A DNA stretch of 64,000 bases from Terebella lapidaria (taxonomy: Eukaryota > Annelida > Polychaeta > Terebellida > Terebellidae), in NCBI GenBank assembly GCA_949152475.1, contig CASCJZ010000009.1:662001-726000 (forward strand), in the 5' to 3' direction. How positions within the stretch are numbered: position 1 is the first letter of the stretch; each line of letters starts with the position of its first letter. The notes under the pieces are model-generated. The model did no database searches. It had not been told where the DNA came from and was given only the letters and a program-made list of their open reading frames with translations. Position numbers and translations under genes: made by a program. Shown one piece after another: positions 43,649 through 53,719 of the stretch.

Positions 43649-44836
43649 TTGCCAAGTCCTAGCTCTCTGAGCGATTGCTTCATTACTTGGCAAAATAAAT
43701 TTTGCCAAGTATGTTGGTCAGTCATCTTGTTTGTTTGTTTGTTTGTTTGTATGTTTGTCTGTCCGTCTGTTATGACGATAGCGGGCGCAATTCTTGTCGC
43801 ATTTTCATGAAATTTTCACACAATATGCGTAAGCAGCTTCCGCATAAGCCTTTCGTTTCTGAAGGTCAAAGGTCAAAAATTGACGCCAAGGTCATTGAAA
43901 AACCAAAAAATTAAAAATCGTAATAACTCCAGTTATATTTTATCAGGACCTTCGAGATTTCTTGCATCGATTACTATGGCCAATTCGGCATCTTTTGATG
44001 TATGGCCGACAGCTGTTGCATCAAAATTGACGATTTTGACTCCAGGTTAAAAAGACGGGGGTCAGGAGTTTCTGGATCAAAAGTTTCATGCATTGCTGTG
44101 CAGTCAATTCTTGTCGGATTCTTATGAAATTTTCACAGCATATGCGCACCAGATGTCGGCATATTCCTGTTGTTTCACAAGGTCAAAAGTCAAGAATTAA
44201 CGCCAAGGTCATTGAAAAACAAAGAAAATAAAAATGGCCATAACTCCACTTTCATTCCACCTGCACTTCCAAAAGTGTTCACGTCTTTTATTATGGTCAA
44301 TTCTGCATCATTTGGTGTATGACCGACAGCAGTTGAATCAAAATTGACGATTTAAACTCCAGGTGAAATACATGGGGGTCAGGAAGTTCGGATCCAAAGT
44401 TTAACACATTGCTGTGCAGTCGATTCTTGTGTGATTTTCACGAAATTCTCACATAATATGTGCACGGAATGTCCGCATAACCCTTTTGATTTGGAACATC
44501 GTAGCTCTGAAACTGTTGTCACGGCAACAGAAAATCGTTACTGAAAAGCATTACATGAAAACGATAATAGCATTGCTATATGAAACACTCCGCTTCACAT
44601 CGCCAGCCACGTTAGTGCTGAGCGTAGAGCGTAGGACTTTGAATCCACAGACCCGGGTTCAATACTATCTCAAAACTGTTTTTTTTTCTCCATTAAAAGA
44701 TCATGTATTCAATTCCAAACAACGAAACAACACATTCGTAGTGTACAAAATCAGCAAATAAATGATCTTTATCGTTATTATATCATCATACTTAATTATT
44801 TCTCACTATGAATTCCTTAAAGTCATTTAACAGTGT
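43649..44836. repeat. L-type unit, left part, interrupted by the LINE
   Basis: Palindrome at 43685-43710, two subrepeats and a tRNA-like module near 44615; the unit stops at the LINE junction. It lacks 11 bp (TAGCACGAGTA) of the L tail near 44764. Confidence 0.92.
44832..44836. repeat. LINE target-site duplication, left copy
   Basis: AGTGT immediately before the element's 3' end. It is half of the 5-bp duplication; the pre-insertion sequence AACAGTGTCTCATTGG survives in other L units, for example at 14975. Confidence 0.75.
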
Positions 44837-45246
44837 AGTAGTAGTAATTTTATTCTGACACACAATAATCATATAAAAATGAACATTTACGATATAGAGT
44901 ACATTTTGAGCGCTATTTACAATATTCGATTCTGTTATTTAGTCAGCTTATGAAATTTCAACATACGATTAATGGTGAGTCATGGTAAATGCTAAAGCTT
45001 TCGCTGTGCACTCCACTCATTAGAGTGAAGTGTAGCAAACACCAAAAATTCCAAGTTATTATGAACATGATTTCCATATAATTTCATAACTAAATTATTA
45101 TGATAATATAACTTCCCTATACATATCATCCCTGTCCCCATACCGTTCCCTTCCCTTAACCCATACTGCTATTTTCATTTAATAATATTCTCAAAATGGC
45201 GTATGTACGTCTGGCACCAAAACAAGAACGAGGAATACTAGTACAT
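44837..45246 (-). other. LINE 3' UTR and terminus
   Basis: These 410 bp follow the ORF2 stop. An AATAAA on the minus strand (44853-44848) lies about 11 bp before the end, which is a short TACTACTACT run. CR1-group elements commonly end in a short repeated tail that the reverse transcriptase recognises. No ORF is present. Confidence 0.75.
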
Positions 45247-48234
45247 TCAATTACTATATAGTGTGAATAAATATTGTTTCAATTTTCTTTTAAAAACTTG
45301 TTTTGAGCGACTTTCTTTAATATCGGTTGGTAACTGTTGCCATGAATCAGGACCCCTCACAAAAAAACTTTTACCGTATACATTGGTTTTGAAAGCAAGA
45401 TGATGGGGATTATTTGATTGCCTTGTGTTATATGCATGAATTTCACTATTGCGGTCGTACATCGACTGGAGAGGGGGTGGAAGCAATTCCCTACTATATG
45501 CATACATAAACTGTAACAAATGATATGTAAATAGATCATATATCCTCAAAATTTTACTCTGCAGAAACAAAGCTAGTGTATGATCATTGTATCTAGCTTT
45601 ATGAATGGCCCGGAGTGATTTTTTCTGTAATATATTGAGTTGATCGAAGTATCGTTTAGCAGCGGTACCCCATAATAATATCCCATACGTAAGATGAGGG
45701 TGGACCATGCAGTAATATATTGTGGTGAGTAAATTAATTGAAAATGATCGCTTTAATGAATTCAATATATATAGCCCCGTCGTTATCTTTTTCCTGCACA
45801 TGCTGATATGAGGGCCCCATTCAAGATGTTTATCGACAATTATACCCAAAAATTTAGTTTCATTCACCGTGGAAATTACATCATTATTTAGGACTAATTG
45901 AAAGTTATATTGGCCGATATCGTGCCCTTTTCTGGAAAATAAAATGCTGTAAGTTTTACTCGTGTTTAATGATAGCTTGTTAGCTCTAAACCAGTCATTT
46001 AATGTTTGCAATTCGGTATTCATAGATAAGTACAATTGTTGAATATCCTTCGCGTGGCTAAATATTGTGGTGTCATCTGCAAATAGTATAGACTGTGAAC
46101 TGTTTAAGTTTTGGGGCAGGTCATTAGAGTATAGTATAAATAATAAAGGCCCAAGTACTGAGCCTTGTGGGACCCCGCATTTCATTATGTGTGTGTTTGA
46201 TTTATGATTATTTATTTGAACATACTGAAGCCTATCTTCTAAATAACTCTTGAACCACTCCAAGGCCACACCCCGTATACCATAATGTGCTAATTTCGCT
46301 AACAATATTTTGTGGTCAATAGTGTCAAAGGCCTTGGAGAGGTCCAAAAATACTGATAATACATATTCGTTGTTTTCAAATGCTTTCAATATATTGTAAT
46401 TTAATTCTGTTACTGCATTAATAGTGCTGTGGTTGGGACGAAACCCATACTGACTATTATATAATATTTTACTACTAGACAAAAAATTGTACAACCTTTT
46501 ATGCATTACTTTTTCAAGTAGTTTAGAAATACATGGTAGTAATGAAACTGGTCGATAATTTGAGAACAACTTTTTATCTTTGGATTTGTATAAAGGTATA
46601 ATTTTAGCTAATTTCATTTTGGATGGAACTTTACCAGTTTCTAAGGACTTATTGATAATAACTGTTAATGGTTTGATTATAGAGTTTTTGATTTGTTTTA
46701 ACAAAATTGAGGTTATACCGTCAAACCCAGAGCTTCGTTTATTTTTTAGTACAGTTATTAAATCTGATATTTCTTCTTCTGTTACGGGATACAAGTACAT
46801 TGATTTATTGTTTGGATTATTCGACATATATTCAGTGAACGAGTTTTTACTTTTTGGTATTTGGTCAGCCAATAATTTTCCTACATCAGTAAAATATTTA
46901 CAAAATTCGTTAGAAATTGTTTCGGCGTCAGATACATCACGTCCGTCAATATTGAATACATTAGATATTCCGTTACCAGTTTGTTTACGCCCCAGTAATT
47001 GATTCATAATGTCCCATGTTTTTCTCATGTCTCCTTTGTACTCATTTAATAAATCATTGTAGTAGGACTCTTTTAGTTGTTTTTTTAACTTATTATACAT
47101 ATTCCTCTGATTCAAGAATTTTTCATGGTCCTTGTTACACCTTGTTTTCAGATACTTTTTAAAAAGTTTGTCTCGTTTTCTCATGACTGATATCAGTTCA
47201 GGTGTAACCCATTTTTCACGAATAATGTATTTAGTGGGAATTTTTATTTCTTTTTCTGGGGCAAACATATCTACTGACTCCATCAGCACGTGCAGGAACG
47301 AATTATATGATTCATCAGTTGACATCTTATCTAGAAATGCCCATTGTATGCTATTGAGTCTATTTATTATTTTTACCACACTTTCATCGTCAAATGATCT
47401 ACACTTAATTCGACTGATCATTAATTTTTCTCGACTCGCCAAGTGGTCTATGAAAACGAAGACAGGGAAATGATCAGAAATACTGGTCTGCAATATTCCT
47501 GGTAAGACATGACTTCGACTCCCTAATTTTATATATATATTATCTATTAATGTGGCAGAACTTTGTGTAATTCTAGTGGGCTTAGTGATCACCGGTTTAT
47601 ATCCTTTACCCATAAAAGTTTCAAAAAGCTTAGATGTGTTGCCATGTTCATTCAATTTTATAAAATCAAAATTTTGATCAGTGCCTATTATTTTATCACA
47701 TGTGGCTTTTTCCAAAATTTCAAGAACTGCATCATATCGATCGATAGCTAATGCTTCACTAGTGTTAGGCACGCGGTAAATTTCTCCAATTATAGTTTTT
47801 CTAGCACATAAATTGACCTCGATGAAAACACTTTCAAATTCGTTCTCAACATGAACTGCTATATCGTTGCGTTCTATGAAGTGTATATCTTCATTGACAT
47901 AAATTGCAACACCCCCTCTCTTTGTTCGTGTACGGTTTCTGGTGATGAGTTTATATCCGTCGAGTTCAAACAATTTGCTATTAGCTTGGGTCAAAAATGT
48001 CTCGCACAACAGAATAAAGTCAAGTTTCTTTTTCCCGATGGTCATTTCACTCAGTAACATTTTCAAATCGTCAAATTTACCTGGCAAGCTTTGTATATTC
48101 AAATGCAAAATGCGCATATCTCTATTCCCCAAATTGCTTATGTTTACTGTTTCTGTAGGTGAGTAATACTGACAATTGTCATCAAGTAAATTATCTTCGA
48201 ATGTGCAACCCGCTGCGCTAGTGGTGGTATTCAT
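45247..48234 (-). CDS. LINE ORF2: APE endonuclease-reverse transcriptase
   Basis: A 995-aa polyprotein for target-primed reverse transcription. The APE-type endonuclease spans residues about 40-262, with LHLNIQS (N46), LLCETF (E78), GTDQNFD (184-190, a variant of the usual GDFN block), LIDNIY (229-234) and SDH (253-255). The reverse transcriptase spans about 540-802: KIIPLYKSKD, NYRPVSLLP, QYGFRPNHST, FLDLSKAFDTIDH (catalytic D631), GVPQGSVLGPLLF and FADD (718-721, catalytic D720 and D721), then LGIIVD in the thumb. The tail at 803-995 contains LTYGILLWG, HAYNTRQSN and GPDSWQQLP, typical of CR1/L2-like ORF2 C-termini, with no RNase H. All core catalytic residues are present. The frame stays open for 32 codons upstream of the ATG at 48234, to a stop at 48331-48333, but holds no other ATG, so a longer product from a non-AUG start or a splice cannot be excluded. 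Confidence 0.96.
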   Translation of the reverse strand: MNTTTSAAGCTFEDNLLDDNCQYYSPTETVNISNLGNRDMRILHLNIQSLPGKFDDLKMLLSEMTIGKKKLDFILLCETFLTQANSKLFELDGYKLITRNRTRTKRGGVAIYVNEDIHFIERNDIAVHVENEFESVFIEVNLCARKTIIGEIYRVPNTSEALAIDRYDAVLEILEKATCDKIIGTDQNFDFIKLNEHGNTSKLFETFMGKGYKPVITKPTRITQSSATLIDNIYIKLGSRSHVLPGILQTSISDHFPVFVFIDHLASREKLMISRIKCRSFDDESVVKIINRLNSIQWAFLDKMSTDESYNSFLHVLMESVDMFAPEKEIKIPTKYIIREKWVTPELISVMRKRDKLFKKYLKTRCNKDHEKFLNQRNMYNKLKKQLKESYYNDLLNEYKGDMRKTWDIMNQLLGRKQTGNGISNVFNIDGRDVSDAETISNEFCKYFTDVGKLLADQIPKSKNSFTEYMSNNPNNKSMYLYPVTEEEISDLITVLKNKRSSGFDGITSILLKQIKNSIIKPLTVIINKSLETGKVPSKMKLAKIIPLYKSKDKKLFSNYRPVSLLPCISKLLEKVMHKRLYNFLSSSKILYNSQYGFRPNHSTINAVTELNYNILKAFENNEYVLSVFLDLSKAFDTIDHKILLAKLAHYGIRGVALEWFKSYLEDRLQYVQINNHKSNTHIMKCGVPQGSVLGPLLFILYSNDLPQNLNSSQSILFADDTTIFSHAKDIQQLYLSMNTELQTLNDWFRANKLSLNTSKTYSILFSRKGHDIGQYNFQLVLNNDVISTVNETKFLGIIVDKHLEWGPHISMCRKKITTGLYILNSLKRSFSINLLTTIYYCMVHPHLTYGILLWGTAAKRYFDQLNILQKKSLRAIHKARYNDHTLALFLQSKILRIYDLFTYHLLQFMYAYSRELLPPPLQSMYDRNSEIHAYNTRQSNNPHHLAFKTNVYGKSFFVRGPDSWQQLPTDIKESRSKQVFKRKLKQYLFTLYSN

Positions 48235-48387
48235 CAGCGTTCGAAAATCGGAACCAGACGTCCATAAATGCTCTTGGCCAGTGCAACAAAAAACTTCCCC
48301 AGAAAATACTATAATACCAAGAAAAATTAATTAATATCATAATGATCGTGAACACTGTTGTTCAATATCACTCTGAGCGGAACAGAA

Positions 48388-49980
48388 TGTCTGCAGGTAT
48401 ACTGGCCTGCTCCTTTGTTAAATGTGCATAATTACAATAGTGCATGAGTTGTATTAATCATTTACAATTGTGAAGTATGTCGATCGATATGTCATGTATA
48501 CTCAGTCAGAAGCAATCATTAATATGTACATTATATCTTGAGACAAATCTGTGTAAGACGAAATATCTAACGGTATGACCCTTGAGTGATGTGCATAGTT
48601 ACAACCGTGCTTGAGCTAAGTTTAATATTCGAAAGTGAGAATTGTTCCGAGTCGATTTGAATATATGTACTCACTCAGAAGTAAAAATAATAATGTACAC
48701 TTTAACTGTGTGACATCAAATGCACAAGAAATAGACAATTAGTTGACAAGGAAGTTGTCATACTTAGTCGGACAATGGGAGACATATGCCATACTGGAGA
48801 CGTCAAGTATACAAAATGCAGTCGATAATCACGGATTACATCTGAGAAATAATCAGTCAACGTAAGTGCAGGTGTACCGATCTGGGCCTTTGTTTTTGTT
48901 GAAATAGACAATATTATGGGCCATTCAATAATATTAATAGTGATACAAATTTACTCGAAAGATCCTGAGTTGTACACCAACAAATTCCAGTCATATAATA
49001 ACAATTGTATTAGAGAAATATATTCCTTCCTATAATTTGACTCCAAACTCTCAGTCACACTAAGACAAACAGGTTGTTTCAAAAACATACATAAATTCTA
49101 GACATGTGGTAGCAATGCTATGCAGTGGAAAATAAAACTGTGGTATGCTGCATACATATATTTTATGCATACTAGTTGTACTAGTTGTACATGAACTGAA
49201 AGAGCCAATGAGAACTAAGTAAGCCAATGAGAACTGAGTAAACAAATGAGAACTGTTTTTGGGTTTGATGAATACATATATACTACTCATTCAAAATTGC
49301 TGTCCGGTAGTTCCTACTCGTACATTGTATTTCAAGTCAAGTCTGAGTACAACATGATGTCTAACGGTATACATCTTTGTGATATATGCATATTTACAAC
49401 TGTGCTTGAGCTGAGTGAAACATTGAAACAAGTCAATATGGTTTGAGATGATTTGATCAGTACATATGCACTCACTCAAAAGTAAACATAACTGTACCTA
49501 AAATTCAATGAAATACACATGTATGAAACAGATAATAGGTTCTTTGAAAAAAAAAAGTTGTTATATTTAATCGGATAACTGGAGATATATACTACACTGG
49601 ATGCATGGAGTATACAAAATACCGTGCATCATCACGGCGTGTATCTGAGAAATAAGTCTTGATCTGATCAGTACATATGCACTCACTCAGAAGTAAACAA
49701 AAACATTGCTTTTGTTGACATACATTTTTTCATGGACATTCAATATTATTTTAGTGATACTCGTTTGTTTGAGAGAATCTGAACTGTACATCTACAAGTC
49801 CCAATTACGCCATAGTTATTGTATTCGGAAATTTTTATTTCTATACCATTTTTATACTTTGACACAGAGTTCATCATATTCAGTCAATCAGGCTATTTCA
49901 ACATCATACATTAAATTCCAGACATGGAAACAATACTATACAGTGGCAATTATAACTGTGTTATATATATATGTATACTG
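48388..49980. repeat. Diverged tandem duplication of about 0.8 kb inside the LINE spacer
   Basis: CTAACGGTAT followed by similar sequence occurs at 48568 and 49361 (offset 793). The shared stretch runs on to a matching AATTC...GACATG segment near 49094 and 49914. A third, partial start (CTGCAGGTAT) is at 48391. Inside the second copy, GATCAGTACATATGCACTCA is repeated at 49455 and 49666. Confidence 0.7.
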
Positions 49981-50490
49981 AGTCATATATACATTACAGG
50001 CATAATAGTTCTCAATCAACATATCATAGAAATATAATTGACCAAACTCTAGTCAATTATGTACATTTGCCATCAATAGACATATGTGTGACAGGGGTAT
50101 CAGATGTTCATCATGTGAGAATATTGTATCAGTATACACAAAATGTAACATCCAAGATAAATTTTACTGACTATAAAACATTAATGTACTGTAATATGGT
50201 AATAATCCAATATTCTACTACATTTGACATCATGCTAAATGCTATGTTAACATTACATATCATAGCCAAGCCATGTATTGGAAATCTCACACACATGTAT
50301 TGGAAATCCCACAATATGTAATAAAGTTTAAATTGTTTTATACCAGTCAATGAATAGGTCCCCTGTAGTTGAATTTAGGGAGACAAATATGTACTTCATG
50401 AATATATGATATGTATATATGTACACACCTTTCCAATTTCTTTACTACAGCTAGATTTCCAACAAATTGTAGACATCAGATAACTGAATA

Positions 50491-50939
50491 ATACTTCCAC
50501 ATATTCAAGGAATATGTACACATGCTTATAAATTTGATAATGAATGTATGATTATATTCAGTGATCAGCTTCAACATATGTTTAGTTCTACACTGAAAAA
50601 TACTGACTAAATAATACTTCCACATATTCAAGGAATATGTACACATGCTTATAAATTTGATAATGAATGTATGATTATATTCAGTGATCAGCTTCAACAT
50701 ATGTTTAGTTCTACACTGAAAGATACTGACTAAATAATACTTCCACATATTCAAGGAATATGTATACATGCTTATAAATTTGATAATGAATGTATGATTA
50801 TATTCAGTGATCAGCTTCAACATATGTGTAGCTCTACATTCAATAATACTGACTGAATAATACTTCCACAGCTCATGAATTTGATAATAAATGTAAGATT
50901 GTATTTAGTGATCAGCTTCAACATATATTTAGCTCTACA
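50491..50939. repeat. 123-bp tandem repeat, three full copies and one partial
   Basis: Copies begin with ATACTTCCAC at 50491, 50614, 50737 and 50860. The spacing is exactly 123 bp. The first three copies differ at only a few positions; the fourth is shorter and diverged. Because 123 is divisible by three, one minus-strand frame stays open through the copies (41 residues per copy). Confidence 0.92.
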
Positions 50940-51111
50940 AAACATATATGTAGAAGTAACTCAGTACTGACATACATGGACAATGTGGATCTATGCACAG
51001 ACCCTATGTACAATATAGTTCCTTTTGAGGAATGTATCTTTCATGTACTTGATTTTTGCCATTAGCTAGTTCTGATTGATTCTGTTATGGAGTCATCTGA
51101 GGAATTAGTCA

Positions 51112-52221
51112 TCAGTTGGTATCCTCATACATGTCAAACATGGAGTGTGCAACTTTGCATACTGTGATTGAATGTTCAAACCTCCTTTTGCCAATGTGTT
51201 TGAAGTCAGAGTGACAGTTTCTGGTCACAACATACATCATGTTATTTATGTTGTTGTCTCTCATGTATTTCAACACATGCAAACCAATACCAAAATCACC
51301 ATCTGAGGTGAAGTTATCATGGTCATTATATCTGAAGGCATACATTAGGTGGTTAGCTGCAGCAACTACTGGGTCACTTTGTAGTGAACTCAGAACTTTG
51401 GCTACATCTTTGCTAGATTTTACTGGTGCTACATAACCACAGAAGGTGCTGCCCCCATCAGTAACCGGTTCACCTTTCACACAAGTGATTGGAGCCTTGT
51501 CAACTGGTGGACAGAATGATGGTTCCTGGTATTTTGTTACTAGTTCACCTTTGAGATACATCTTATCACCTTTGAGTGTAGCTTTGTTATTTTTCTCTTT
51601 TTTATAGCCCAGGTATGTTGGCAATACATAGTCTTTGCGTTCTCTTTGTTTTGCTGTTAACTGTTGAGTCATGAAGTAGCTTGTTCCCTTCAACTGAGCA
51701 CAGCAGTTGAGTACACGTTCGCGTTCTTTTGCAATGGGGAGTTTGACCAACATCGCTCTGGATCTGTTAGAAGTACGGGTTCCCACTCTGTGAGCCACTG
51801 GGATATATATGTCGTCACGTATTCCCAGGACGTTTTTGAAGAATGCTTTTGTTATGGCTGGGCCGTCTTCTGCATCGACTTCTCTGTAGTCAGCATTCTG
51901 TGGATCGAACGTGATTATCACATTTTCCTTCATTGAGTGGGCCTTCAAGTCGTCAAGTTCGTCCCGCGTGGTTTTCAGGACCTTTTCGTTTTTTTCTATC
52001 TTGGCTGTTAGCAATCGAACTTGATCGTGCAAAGTGTCTAACTTTTCAGTGACGTCACACTCACTTTTATCGTTCTGCTCGAGGGTTGACACACGGTCTT
52101 CCAGGTCGTCAACACGCTCGTTCAGCCCTGCAGTGTCGGCTTTTATAGAAACCAGCATATCCCATAGACCCTGTGGTACCCCTTCGGGAATATCCAGTAT
52201 TTTTTGCTTTCTTGGAGGCAT
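51112..52221 (-). CDS. LINE ORF1 protein: coiled coil, RRM-like region and IMPACT/YigZ-like C-terminal domain
   Basis: A 369-aa protein, the first ORF of the LINE. Residues about 22-97 form a heptad-rich coiled coil (ERVDDLEDRVSTLE at 35-48), expected to make the protein trimerise or multimerise. Residues about 98-175 look like the RRM-like nucleic-acid-binding region of L1-type ORF1 proteins (ENVIITF, then IPVAHRVGTR, then AMLVKLPIAKERERV). Residues about 180-235 are basic and LTAKQRER-containing, like the ORF1 C-terminal domain. Residues about 249-358 are unexpected: GEPVTDGGSTFCGYVAPV at 250-267, VVAAANHLMYAFRY at 285-298, SDGDFGIGLHVLKYM at 306-320 and GKRRFEHSITVCK at 344-356 follow the order and spacing of the IMPACT/YigZ (UPF0029) fold. 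The family's WYGG signature is absent (TRNCHSDF instead), so the domain may keep the fold but not the ancestral surface. The start ATG at 52221 has A at -3. By family the protein should bind LINE RNA; the role of the extra domain is unknown. Confidence 0.9.
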   Translation of the reverse strand: MPPRKQKILDIPEGVPQGLWDMLVSIKADTAGLNERVDDLEDRVSTLEQNDKSECDVTEKLDTLHDQVRLLTAKIEKNEKVLKTTRDELDDLKAHSMKENVIITFDPQNADYREVDAEDGPAITKAFFKNVLGIRDDIYIPVAHRVGTRTSNRSRAMLVKLPIAKERERVLNCCAQLKGTSYFMTQQLTAKQRERKDYVLPTYLGYKKEKNNKATLKGDKMYLKGELVTKYQEPSFCPPVDKAPITCVKGEPVTDGGSTFCGYVAPVKSSKDVAKVLSSLQSDPVVAAANHLMYAFRYNDHDNFTSDGDFGIGLHVLKYMRDNNINNMMYVVTRNCHSDFKHIGKRRFEHSITVCKVAHSMFDMYEDTN

Positions 52222-52362
52222 ATTGTTTCGTTAATATATGTAATCCACTCAAATGTATCACTTACAGTGCTTGGTTCACCAGTATATGCCGTTTAACTCT
52301 ATATTTTTCTAATTTATCTGGAGAGTGAATTTGTGCATCTAGCTAGGCCGCCATTTTACCGG
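52222..52362 (-). promoter_or_regulatory. LINE 5' leader with YY1-like motif
   Basis: The 141-bp leader starts CCGGTAAAATGGCGGCC. The minus-strand motif AAAATGGCGGC (52357-52347) matches the YY1 consensus, as does the motif near the first bases of human L1. The same bases form a tiny upstream reading frame, ATG GCG GCC TAG. The motif is seen in the sequence; its use as a start-site positioner is inferred from L1. Confidence 0.5.
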
Positions 52363-52367
52363 AGTGT
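52363..52367. repeat. LINE target-site duplication, right copy
   Basis: AGTGT directly after the element's 5' end (ACCGG). From here to the next unit anchor is 276 bp, the same as in the uninterrupted unit at 13782. Confidence 0.75.
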
Positions 52368-52638: not shown

Positions 52639-53719
52639 TTGCCAAGTCCTAGCTCTTTGAGCGATTACTTCAGTTGTATGTTGCTCAGCGATCAAATATG
52701 TGTTCTGTCCGTCTGTTCGCACGATAGCGGGCGCAATCCTTGTCGGAATGACATGAAATTCTCAAAGAAGATGCGCATAAGACTCCTGCATAAGCCTATT
52801 GATTTTGAAGGTCATAGCTTAAAAACTGTTGTCTTGGCGACTGAAAAACCGTTACATAACTATAACTATGGAGGCTGGAAAACCATAAAGTAACTGCTAC
52901 ATGCAATACACTTCTTCACACTGTCGGCAACGTTGGTGCAGTGGATAGAGCGTAAGACTTTAAATCCAAAGACCCGTGTTCAACCCTCCCTCAAAACTCT
53001 AAACTCTTTTATCTCTAACTTAGTTTTTTCTAGAGTCAGTAGCAGTGTTATTTCTAGTTTATAATGCACCTTTTACATTTGGAATAGATTGAAAATTCGC
53101 CGAGATATCAAAGTAGAAAGAGCAGTGGGGTGAATCTGATTCTCAATCCGTTCACACGCCAATAAGCTGTAGAAACGATTACCCCCTGTGGACATGTCCC
53201 GTCCTAAATACACACGCTCGGTTGCATTGTAATTCAGTATATCATATATGTATCCAGATGCAGATCTCAAACAACATTTCAGTGGTTTTCTAACTCAGTG
53301 ATGTACAAGTGATATAACAAAGCCTAAAACTCTAGTCTAAATACAGTCTGTGTCAAGCGACAGGCTCCCTTATATTAGGACTGCTGGCGATGACGAACCG
53401 GCAAAGGAACCGGCCCCCTTCCCGGTTTTTAGCAGTACATACAATAAATACACCCCTTCACACTGTCGGCAACTTTGGTGCTGTGCATAGAGCTCAGGAC
53501 TTTGAATCCACAGACCCGGGTTCAACTCTCTCTCAAAACTTGTTTTTTCTCTCTAACTTACAGGATCATGTCTTTTATAGCATAACTGCACAATTTAATA
53601 CATGTACGACTTACTTGACAGCAAACAGATAATTTAACAAAAAATAACTATTCAAGTCTCTCTCAAAACGTTTTTTAGCTGTTTTTTTATAGACTTCTTT
53701 TCAAGTTCATTACTTTATT
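52639..53719. repeat. S unit (1,081 bp)
   Basis: First module at 52934, second near 53477. Small private changes (ATTGTAATTCAG, TTAGTTTTTTCTAGAG) mark it as more diverged than most S units. Confidence 0.92.

Follow-up and report, generated by a model that had tools for sequence, protein, structure and literature searches.

A LINE of Terebella lapidaria with a predicted L1-type ORF1 protein that carries a C-terminal UPF0029 (IMPACT/YigZ-like) domain

Results

The LINE and its copies

The window, that is, the whole stretch of 64,000 nucleotides analysed here, carries on its minus strand a LINE with two long open reading frames and the following parts.

44835..52363, minus: whole LINE, 7,529 bases, with ends set by near-identical copies
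52222..52363, minus: 5' UTR, 142 bases, from copy comparison
51112..52221, minus: ORF1, 369 aa, predicted coiled coil-RRM-CTD-UPF0029 (ORF list, Pfam, AlphaFold2, Foldseek)
51931..52173, minus: predicted coiled coil, ORF1 residues 17-97 (model helices 17-49 and 54-97; weak matches to Pfam coiled-coil families)
51505..51930, minus: predicted L1-type RRM and CTD, ORF1 residues 98-239 (Foldseek to LINE-1 ORF1p and AlphaFold2 model)
51115..51474, minus: UPF0029 (IMPACT/YigZ-like) domain, ORF1 residues 250-369 (Pfam, phmmer, profile, model, Foldseek)
48235..51111, minus: spacer between ORF1 and ORF2, 2,877 bases, which includes a tandem array of a 123-bp unit (50483-50870)
45247..48234, minus: ORF2, 995 aa, endonuclease and reverse transcriptase (Pfam, PDB search)
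47395..48234, minus: APE-type endonuclease part of ORF2 (invariant residues in alignment)
45838..46566, minus: reverse transcriptase domain, ORF2 residues 557-799 (Pfam RVT_1)
44835..45246, minus: 3' UTR and (TAC)n tail, from copy comparison, the tail about 410 bases 3' of ORF2

The identity of the element as a LINE is firm. ORF2 contains a non-LTR reverse transcriptase, which matches Pfam RVT_1 at 1.5e-40, and LINE-1 ORF2 chains head the PDB search at 1.7e-19. Pfam endonuclease models gave no match to ORF2; the APE-type endonuclease is recognised from residues E78, D186, N188, D254 and H255, which are invariant in all six aligned rows (two of them near-identical) and which we take to be the catalytic positions of endonucleases of this type. 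Moreover, dispersed copies have common ends and a 3' tail, and there is no sign of LTRs, the first and last 600 bases of the element having no common exact word longer than 10 bases.

The ORF1 frame runs from ATG to TGA over 369 codons with no internal stop, and the 762-Mb genome holds nine full-length ORF1 copies at about 100% protein identity. ORF2 follows ORF1 in each of the nine, at equal spacing in eight and with 49 additional bases in one; a stop interrupts ORF2 in a single copy (C4). Two more full-length copies of ORF2 (C2:44788888 and C5:19042619) are without a full ORF1 among the matches listed. Over the 5' UTR and ORF1 (1,252 nt), seven of eight fetched copies, the window copy included, are identical and the eighth has three differences, and all eight ORF2 loci fetched are identical across 3,395 nt. 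With respect to the termini, the 142 bases before the ORF1 ATG are common to the window copy and six of seven others, with divergence beyond, and in the seventh (L008) a single mismatch to the window copy lies closer to the ATG. At the 3' end, GAATAAAAT is followed by the (TAC)n tail, beyond which the flanks differ in all seven copies. Given these differing flanks, the copies are separate and very recent insertions, and the window LINE is a complete element that was apparently very recently active. When target-site duplications were sought in six copies, a plausible 9-bp repeat abutting both ends was seen in one (L002/L010), and the other five gave matches of 4-8 bp only.

Several further observations concern the surrounding sequence. 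The tandem array in the window spacer comprises 3.2 copies of the 123-bp unit within 2.9 kb, and spacers in other lineages measure about 0.5 to 3 kb. A search of the window with Rfam gave nothing at gathering scores. A search for the haemocyanin family PF14830, run without a positive control, gave no match either. An 84-aa frame is repeated four times, at window positions 52639, 53720, 55439 and 57573, with a tRNA-like stretch less than 50 bases behind each; together these presumably represent a SINE.

The ORF1 protein and its UPF0029 domain

The original prediction, which rested on five landmark strings, all of them present in the ORF1 translation, held that a LINE ORF1 protein is fused to an IMPACT/YigZ-like domain, and the present analysis bears this out by sequence and by fold. 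Neither of the two results that would have spoken against it, namely a lack of any significant PF01205 match or a predicted fold different from that of YigZ and IMPACT, was obtained. Pfam PF01205 (UPF0029) matches ORF1 residues 257-348 (window 51178-51453) with E 8.7e-11 and 42.2 bits, above the curated cut-off of 27 bits, and the C-terminal 131 aa alone score 45.1 bits. Among PDB sequences, phmmer retrieves 6bqi_A (Protein IMPACT homolog, titled Yih1 in Foldseek) at 1e-07, and a profile built from 25 ORF1 relatives matches the same chain at 3.2e-19. An AlphaFold2 model of ORF1 built on these 25 relatives has a mean pLDDT of 87.3 and a pTM of 0.72, with UPF0029 blocks at 88-98. In a Foldseek search with the whole model, the human LINE-1 ORF1p structures 2ykq_A (trimer, 4.6e-07), 2ldy (7.1e-04) and 2w7a (2.5e-02) are retrieved along with three proteins with the ancient-domain fold, namely Yih1 6bqi (6.6e-07, a loose superposition with rmsd 9.1 and TM 0.25/0.35), TT1547 2cve (9.3e-06, rmsd 3.7, TM 0.25/0.46) and YigZ 1vi7 (2.7e-04, a tighter rmsd of 2.6, TM 0.28/0.49). 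The Foldseek table gives no residue ranges, and the RRM-CTD was placed with the help of the AlphaFold2 model; in our reading of this model and of the Pfam positions, the LINE-1 ORF1p matches would cover the front of ORF1 and the Yih1, TT1547 and YigZ matches its tail.

No Pfam LINE-1 ORF1 model is among the 14 families listed for ORF1 at E<=10, so that the assignment of the RRM and CTD rests on the predicted fold; on that fold, with its putative coiled coil, RRM and CTD, ORF1 is a Type II (L1-type) protein. The predicted order of these three parts is that of human LINE-1 ORF1p (PDB 2ykq, 2yko; Type II), from which the window LINE differs in its (TAC)n tail and its UPF0029 domain. Human LINE-1 has a poly(A) tail, and we know of no UPF0029 domain in its ORF1p.

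The window domain has in common with IMPACT/Yih1 (PDB 6bqi) the so-called ancient domain, and among solved proteins Yih1 is nearest to it by sequence, ahead of the long bacterial YigZ; YigZ (PDB 1vi7) and TT1547 (2cve) match it in fold and more weakly in sequence. Both the profile score and the YigZ/Yih1 fold place it in UPF0029, but in place of the canonical DDGE and RWxxG motifs the window's clade has S-D-x-D and R-x-C. The protein as a whole does not belong with YigZ proper, since its score with the whole-protein model NCBIfam TIGR00257 is 17.4 bits, where the cut-off is 167.95. Neither does it have the build of IMPACT: no RWD domain is among the families listed for the window ORF1 at E<=10, nor among the 25 of 28 families listed for the 25-member ORF1 alignment. 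Yih1, by comparison, carries an RWD domain (PMC4503747) and stands outside any retrotransposon.

Conservation across ORF1 lineages

Forty divergent ORF1 loci were fetched, hand-picked from the ORF1 matches in the genome, and 48 ORF1-bearing loci were reduced to 25 lineages by a 90% identity cut (among the loci removed is L054, the frame of which stops before UPF0029). PF01205 is matched at E<=0.01 in all 25 lineages, which are less than 90% identical to each other, so that the similarity to UPF0029 is beyond chance. Downstream on the same strand, ORF2 is present, at least in part, in 19 of 20 divergent 9-kb loci. The combination of domains could in principle be an artefact of chance similarity, chimeric assembly or a host gene lying beside a LINE; since UPF0029 recurs in 25/25 lineages and the copies on several contigs have one common start and end and are linked to ORF2, the likelihood of such an artefact is negligible.

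In the 25-member alignment, 13 of the 19 invariant ORF1 columns fall within UPF0029, although fewer invariant columns are to be expected in the coiled coil because two rows (L043, L056) start late. Among 113 ORF1 matches in the genome, 74 are unbroken from residue <=110 to >=330, and 11 stop short of UPF0029; for four of these 11, UPF0029 or the remainder is found as a separate piece, and the other seven, with no second piece listed, may be broken or may be without the domain. Across 16 divergent pairs, identity is 53-82% for UPF0029, 52-77% for the RRM and 57-78% for the CTD, the UPF0029 value being equal to or higher than both others in eight pairs, between or level with them in five and lower than both in three. 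The dN/dS of UPF0029 is 0.11-0.17 in those divergent pairs that have a finite dS (the dS values of divergent pairs are either 1.7-2.5, that is, near saturation, or infinite), and 0.14, 0.51, 0.61 and 1.22 in close pairs with few changes. Because of this near-saturated or infinite dS and the few changes in close pairs, the main argument for selection on UPF0029 is that the domain is conserved from lineage to lineage, and some of this retention could be structural.

For 15 loci, the trees built from ORF2, from the RRM-CTD and from UPF0029 agree on three groups (L006/L017/L020, L028-L031/L035 and L032/L036). Two loci stand apart from this pattern: L033 and L034 have a far-off ORF2 (branch 1.76) and an ORF1 that lies within the rest, suggesting that LINE lineages have swapped ORF1. 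At another locus, L026, two tandem copies of ORF1 lie 3 kb apart, with no ORF2 match within 9 kb.

A remodelled site in UPF0029

For comparison with the window's clade we assembled 16 canonical UPF0029 domains (13 of this genome, two from Paracoccaceae and that of Yih1), leaving the long bacterial YigZ and TT1547 out of the motif count. The residues A, H, D, D, G, E, V, R, W, G, G and R are present in 16/16 of this set, with DDGE, RW and the second G of RWxxG constant and the intervening letters variable. Five residues, H291, D307, R334, G344 and R347, are invariant both in the window's clade (25/25) and in the canonical set (16/16). Elsewhere in the motif, S replaces the first D and D replaces the E (25/25 each), and RWxxG has lost its W and its second G, both of which Yih1 retains. 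The conserved site has thus been remodelled in the window's clade from D-D-G-E...R-W-x-x-G...G..R to S-D-x-D...R-x-C...H-I-G..R.

The persistence of H, D, R and R in all 16 canonical domains and all 25 members of the window's clade would suit a pocket, in which case UPF0029 in ORF1 might keep an activity of the ancient domain on a small molecule, a nucleotide or modified RNA. We regard such an activity as rather unlikely: the clade has exchanged D for S and E for D and has dropped the W and second G, the long YigZ and TT1547, which stand outside the 16-domain count, are without the last R and the W of the canonical motif, and no substrate is known. A zinc site formed by C336, H342, H350 and C355 was also considered and dropped, since H350 and C355 are found in 21 of 25 members each, and H is common at both H positions in canonical domains too (9/16 and 8/16).

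With respect to charge, the 25 domains have a mean net value of -0.6, and unspecific RNA binding is therefore unlikely. This near-neutral charge argues against simple RNA binding, and UPF0029 in these proteins does not look like a charge-driven nucleic-acid clamp.

Other ORF1 builds with UPF0029 in the same genome

Searching the genome with PF01205 produced 381 candidates, of which 150 were scored; all 150 are above the cut-off, with scores of up to 99 bits. None of the 113 matches to the window-type ORF1 overlaps these 150, and the window's clade is therefore additional to them. In 70 of the 150, a single match spans UPF0029 and a divergent RRM-CTD ORF1, and in four more it takes in part of such an ORF1; 33 are joined to PHD and/or esterase domains, and 43 are without an assigned build. 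The 70 RRM-CTD-UPF0029 frames would be LINE proteins by virtue of their homology to ORF1. In three loci (L074/L061/L075), an RRM-CTD region related to that of the window (hhalign 97.3%, 2e-11) is followed by a canonical UPF0029 and a P/Q-rich end.

In the PHD/esterase type, exemplified by L057/L059, an open frame of 632 codons encodes a PHD finger (1.6e-04, under its cut-off), UPF0029 (95.8 bits) and a GDSL esterase (5.6e-09, above its cut-off), behind which a cysteine-rich knuckle can be made out by eye; an overlapping frame with an endonuclease (1.4e-06, above its cut-off) follows. When the genome was searched with this ORF1, 76 of 616 candidates were scored and fell into 69 clusters. Among those with both domains, UPF0029 stands before the esterase in 20 and behind it in 13, five of the 13 being complete PHD-esterase-UPF frames; in 15 of the 69 an esterase is seen without UPF0029, part of these being fragments.

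Thus, at least four ORF1 builds carry UPF0029: coiled coil-RRM-CTD-UPF, divergent RRM-CTD-UPF with a P/Q-rich tail, PHD-UPF-esterase and PHD-esterase-UPF. The domain is a shuffled module of LINE ORF1s and is not confined to one element.

These builds also bear on whether UPF0029 could be a mere structural cap with no ligand, which would make the ORF1p trimer more stable at its C-terminal end. Its position behind the CTD, modelled with high confidence, would fit such a cap, but the PHD/esterase ORF1s have the domain before or behind the esterase with no RRM match seen, and several of its invariant residues are polar; we consider this explanation improbable.

Two other kinds of UPF0029 locus were noticed. 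At G000:C16:17908475-17931453, three UPF0029 frames recur at a regular spacing of 11.3 kb, perhaps as a tandem array of an element, and L067 and L068 hold UPF0029 pieces in frames of less than 100 codons that are possibly exons of host genes.

Origin of the domain

In a tree of 43 UPF0029 domains, from which L066 was left out, the window's clade forms one group (n=25, support 100/100), the PHD type another (97/91) and L061/L069/L070/L071 a third (100/100). A single clade of the window's, PHD-type and divergent RRM-CTD domains has support of 17/5, a value that neither establishes nor rejects it. It is possible either that UPF0029 was captured once and later shuffled, or that it was captured several times. 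The donor of the window domain is likely to have been eukaryotic; this is put no higher than likely because short YigZ-family proteins of Paracoccaceae, too, reach about 41% identity to the UPF0029 domain of a related LINE of the PHD type (L057). No relatives were confirmed in viral contigs. In a search of the genome for a host IMPACT gene as donor, none of the seven RWD matches lies, by eye, near a listed PF01205 match.

The genes of these Paracoccaceae proteins (L072, L073) are of the YigZ type, stand alone and lie on plasmids.

Discussion

The CR1/L2 ORF1 proteins (PMC4120745; ZfL2-1 in PMC3905857) contain PHD and GDSL esterase modules such as those found here in L057/L059, which likewise stand before an ORF2 with an endonuclease but have UPF0029 added between or behind these modules. 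In Table 1 of PMC4120745, where the ORF1 domains of 448 Jockey-superfamily elements are set out, UPF0029 is not among the domains given. As the original prediction had supposed, we found no description of a UPF0029/YigZ/IMPACT domain in a retrotransposon ORF1 in a library of 5.39 million open-licence papers; a Repbase or Dfam entry may exist.

What the domain does in IMPACT and YigZ gives limited guidance. According to PMC7140605, it occurs in eukaryotes as well as prokaryotes and has no known function, and its partners have been termed elusive (PMC4503747). IMPACT is an inhibitor of GCN2 (PMC7140605), and the original prediction accordingly envisaged action on translation or stress control by way of GCN1 and GCN2. 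More generally, UPF0029 might tether ORF1p to ribosomes, to GCN1/GCN2 or to another branch of eIF2alpha-kinase signalling, as a consequence of which translation of the LINE would continue under stress. The GCN1/GCN2 part of this proposal fares poorly. In yeast, the RWD of Yih1 alone inhibits Gcn2 (PMC7140605), and mutations in helix H3 of this RWD lower the binding of Gcn1 (PMC4503747); because no RWD is among the families listed for the window ORF1 or its 25-member alignment, the GCN1/GCN2 route would be without its binding part, and the likelihood that UPF0029 acts as a GCN1 decoy is lowered. A role in the stress response is kept as a rival because mouse LINE-1 ORF1p is reported to affect eIF2alpha phosphorylation in another manner: it engages PRKRA, and phosphorylation is moderately down in HeLa cells, but the change in phospho-eIF2alpha in mouse testes is not significant (PMC10289378). 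On balance, we think it quite unlikely that hijacking of translation or stress control explains the domain.

The explanation that we favour, and consider probable, is that this apparently recently active LINE encodes an L1-type, RNA-packaging ORF1p in which the C-terminal UPF0029 gives the RNP a recognition module with a specific ligand. The ORF1p trimer would display three UPF0029 domains beside the RRM-CTD head, and each could bind that ligand as part of the ORF1p RNP. The most likely ligand would be a structured RNA or one of the ends of the LINE RNA; a translation-machinery protein is a less likely candidate.

The presence of UPF0029 in LINEs provides a new means of studying a domain that has no known job as yet. 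In particular, the identical and apparently recently mobile copies constitute a natural functional test, in which single-residue changes in UPF0029 could be combined with a retrotransposition read-out. Furthermore, UPF0029 extends the catalogue of ORF1 modules (PMC4120745), and its presence suggests that translation regulators are a source of domains for LINE ORF1s. In a broader and more tentative proposal, which we regard as plausible but short of probable, UPF0029 is one more ORF1 module of LINEs beside RRM, CCHC, PHD and esterase, has been widely shuffled among at least four ORF1 builds and kept by selection, and the ancient domain is at heart a recognition domain linked to RNPs or translation. 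If this is true, a job common to these ORF1s would reveal that same role for the ancient domain in IMPACT and YigZ.
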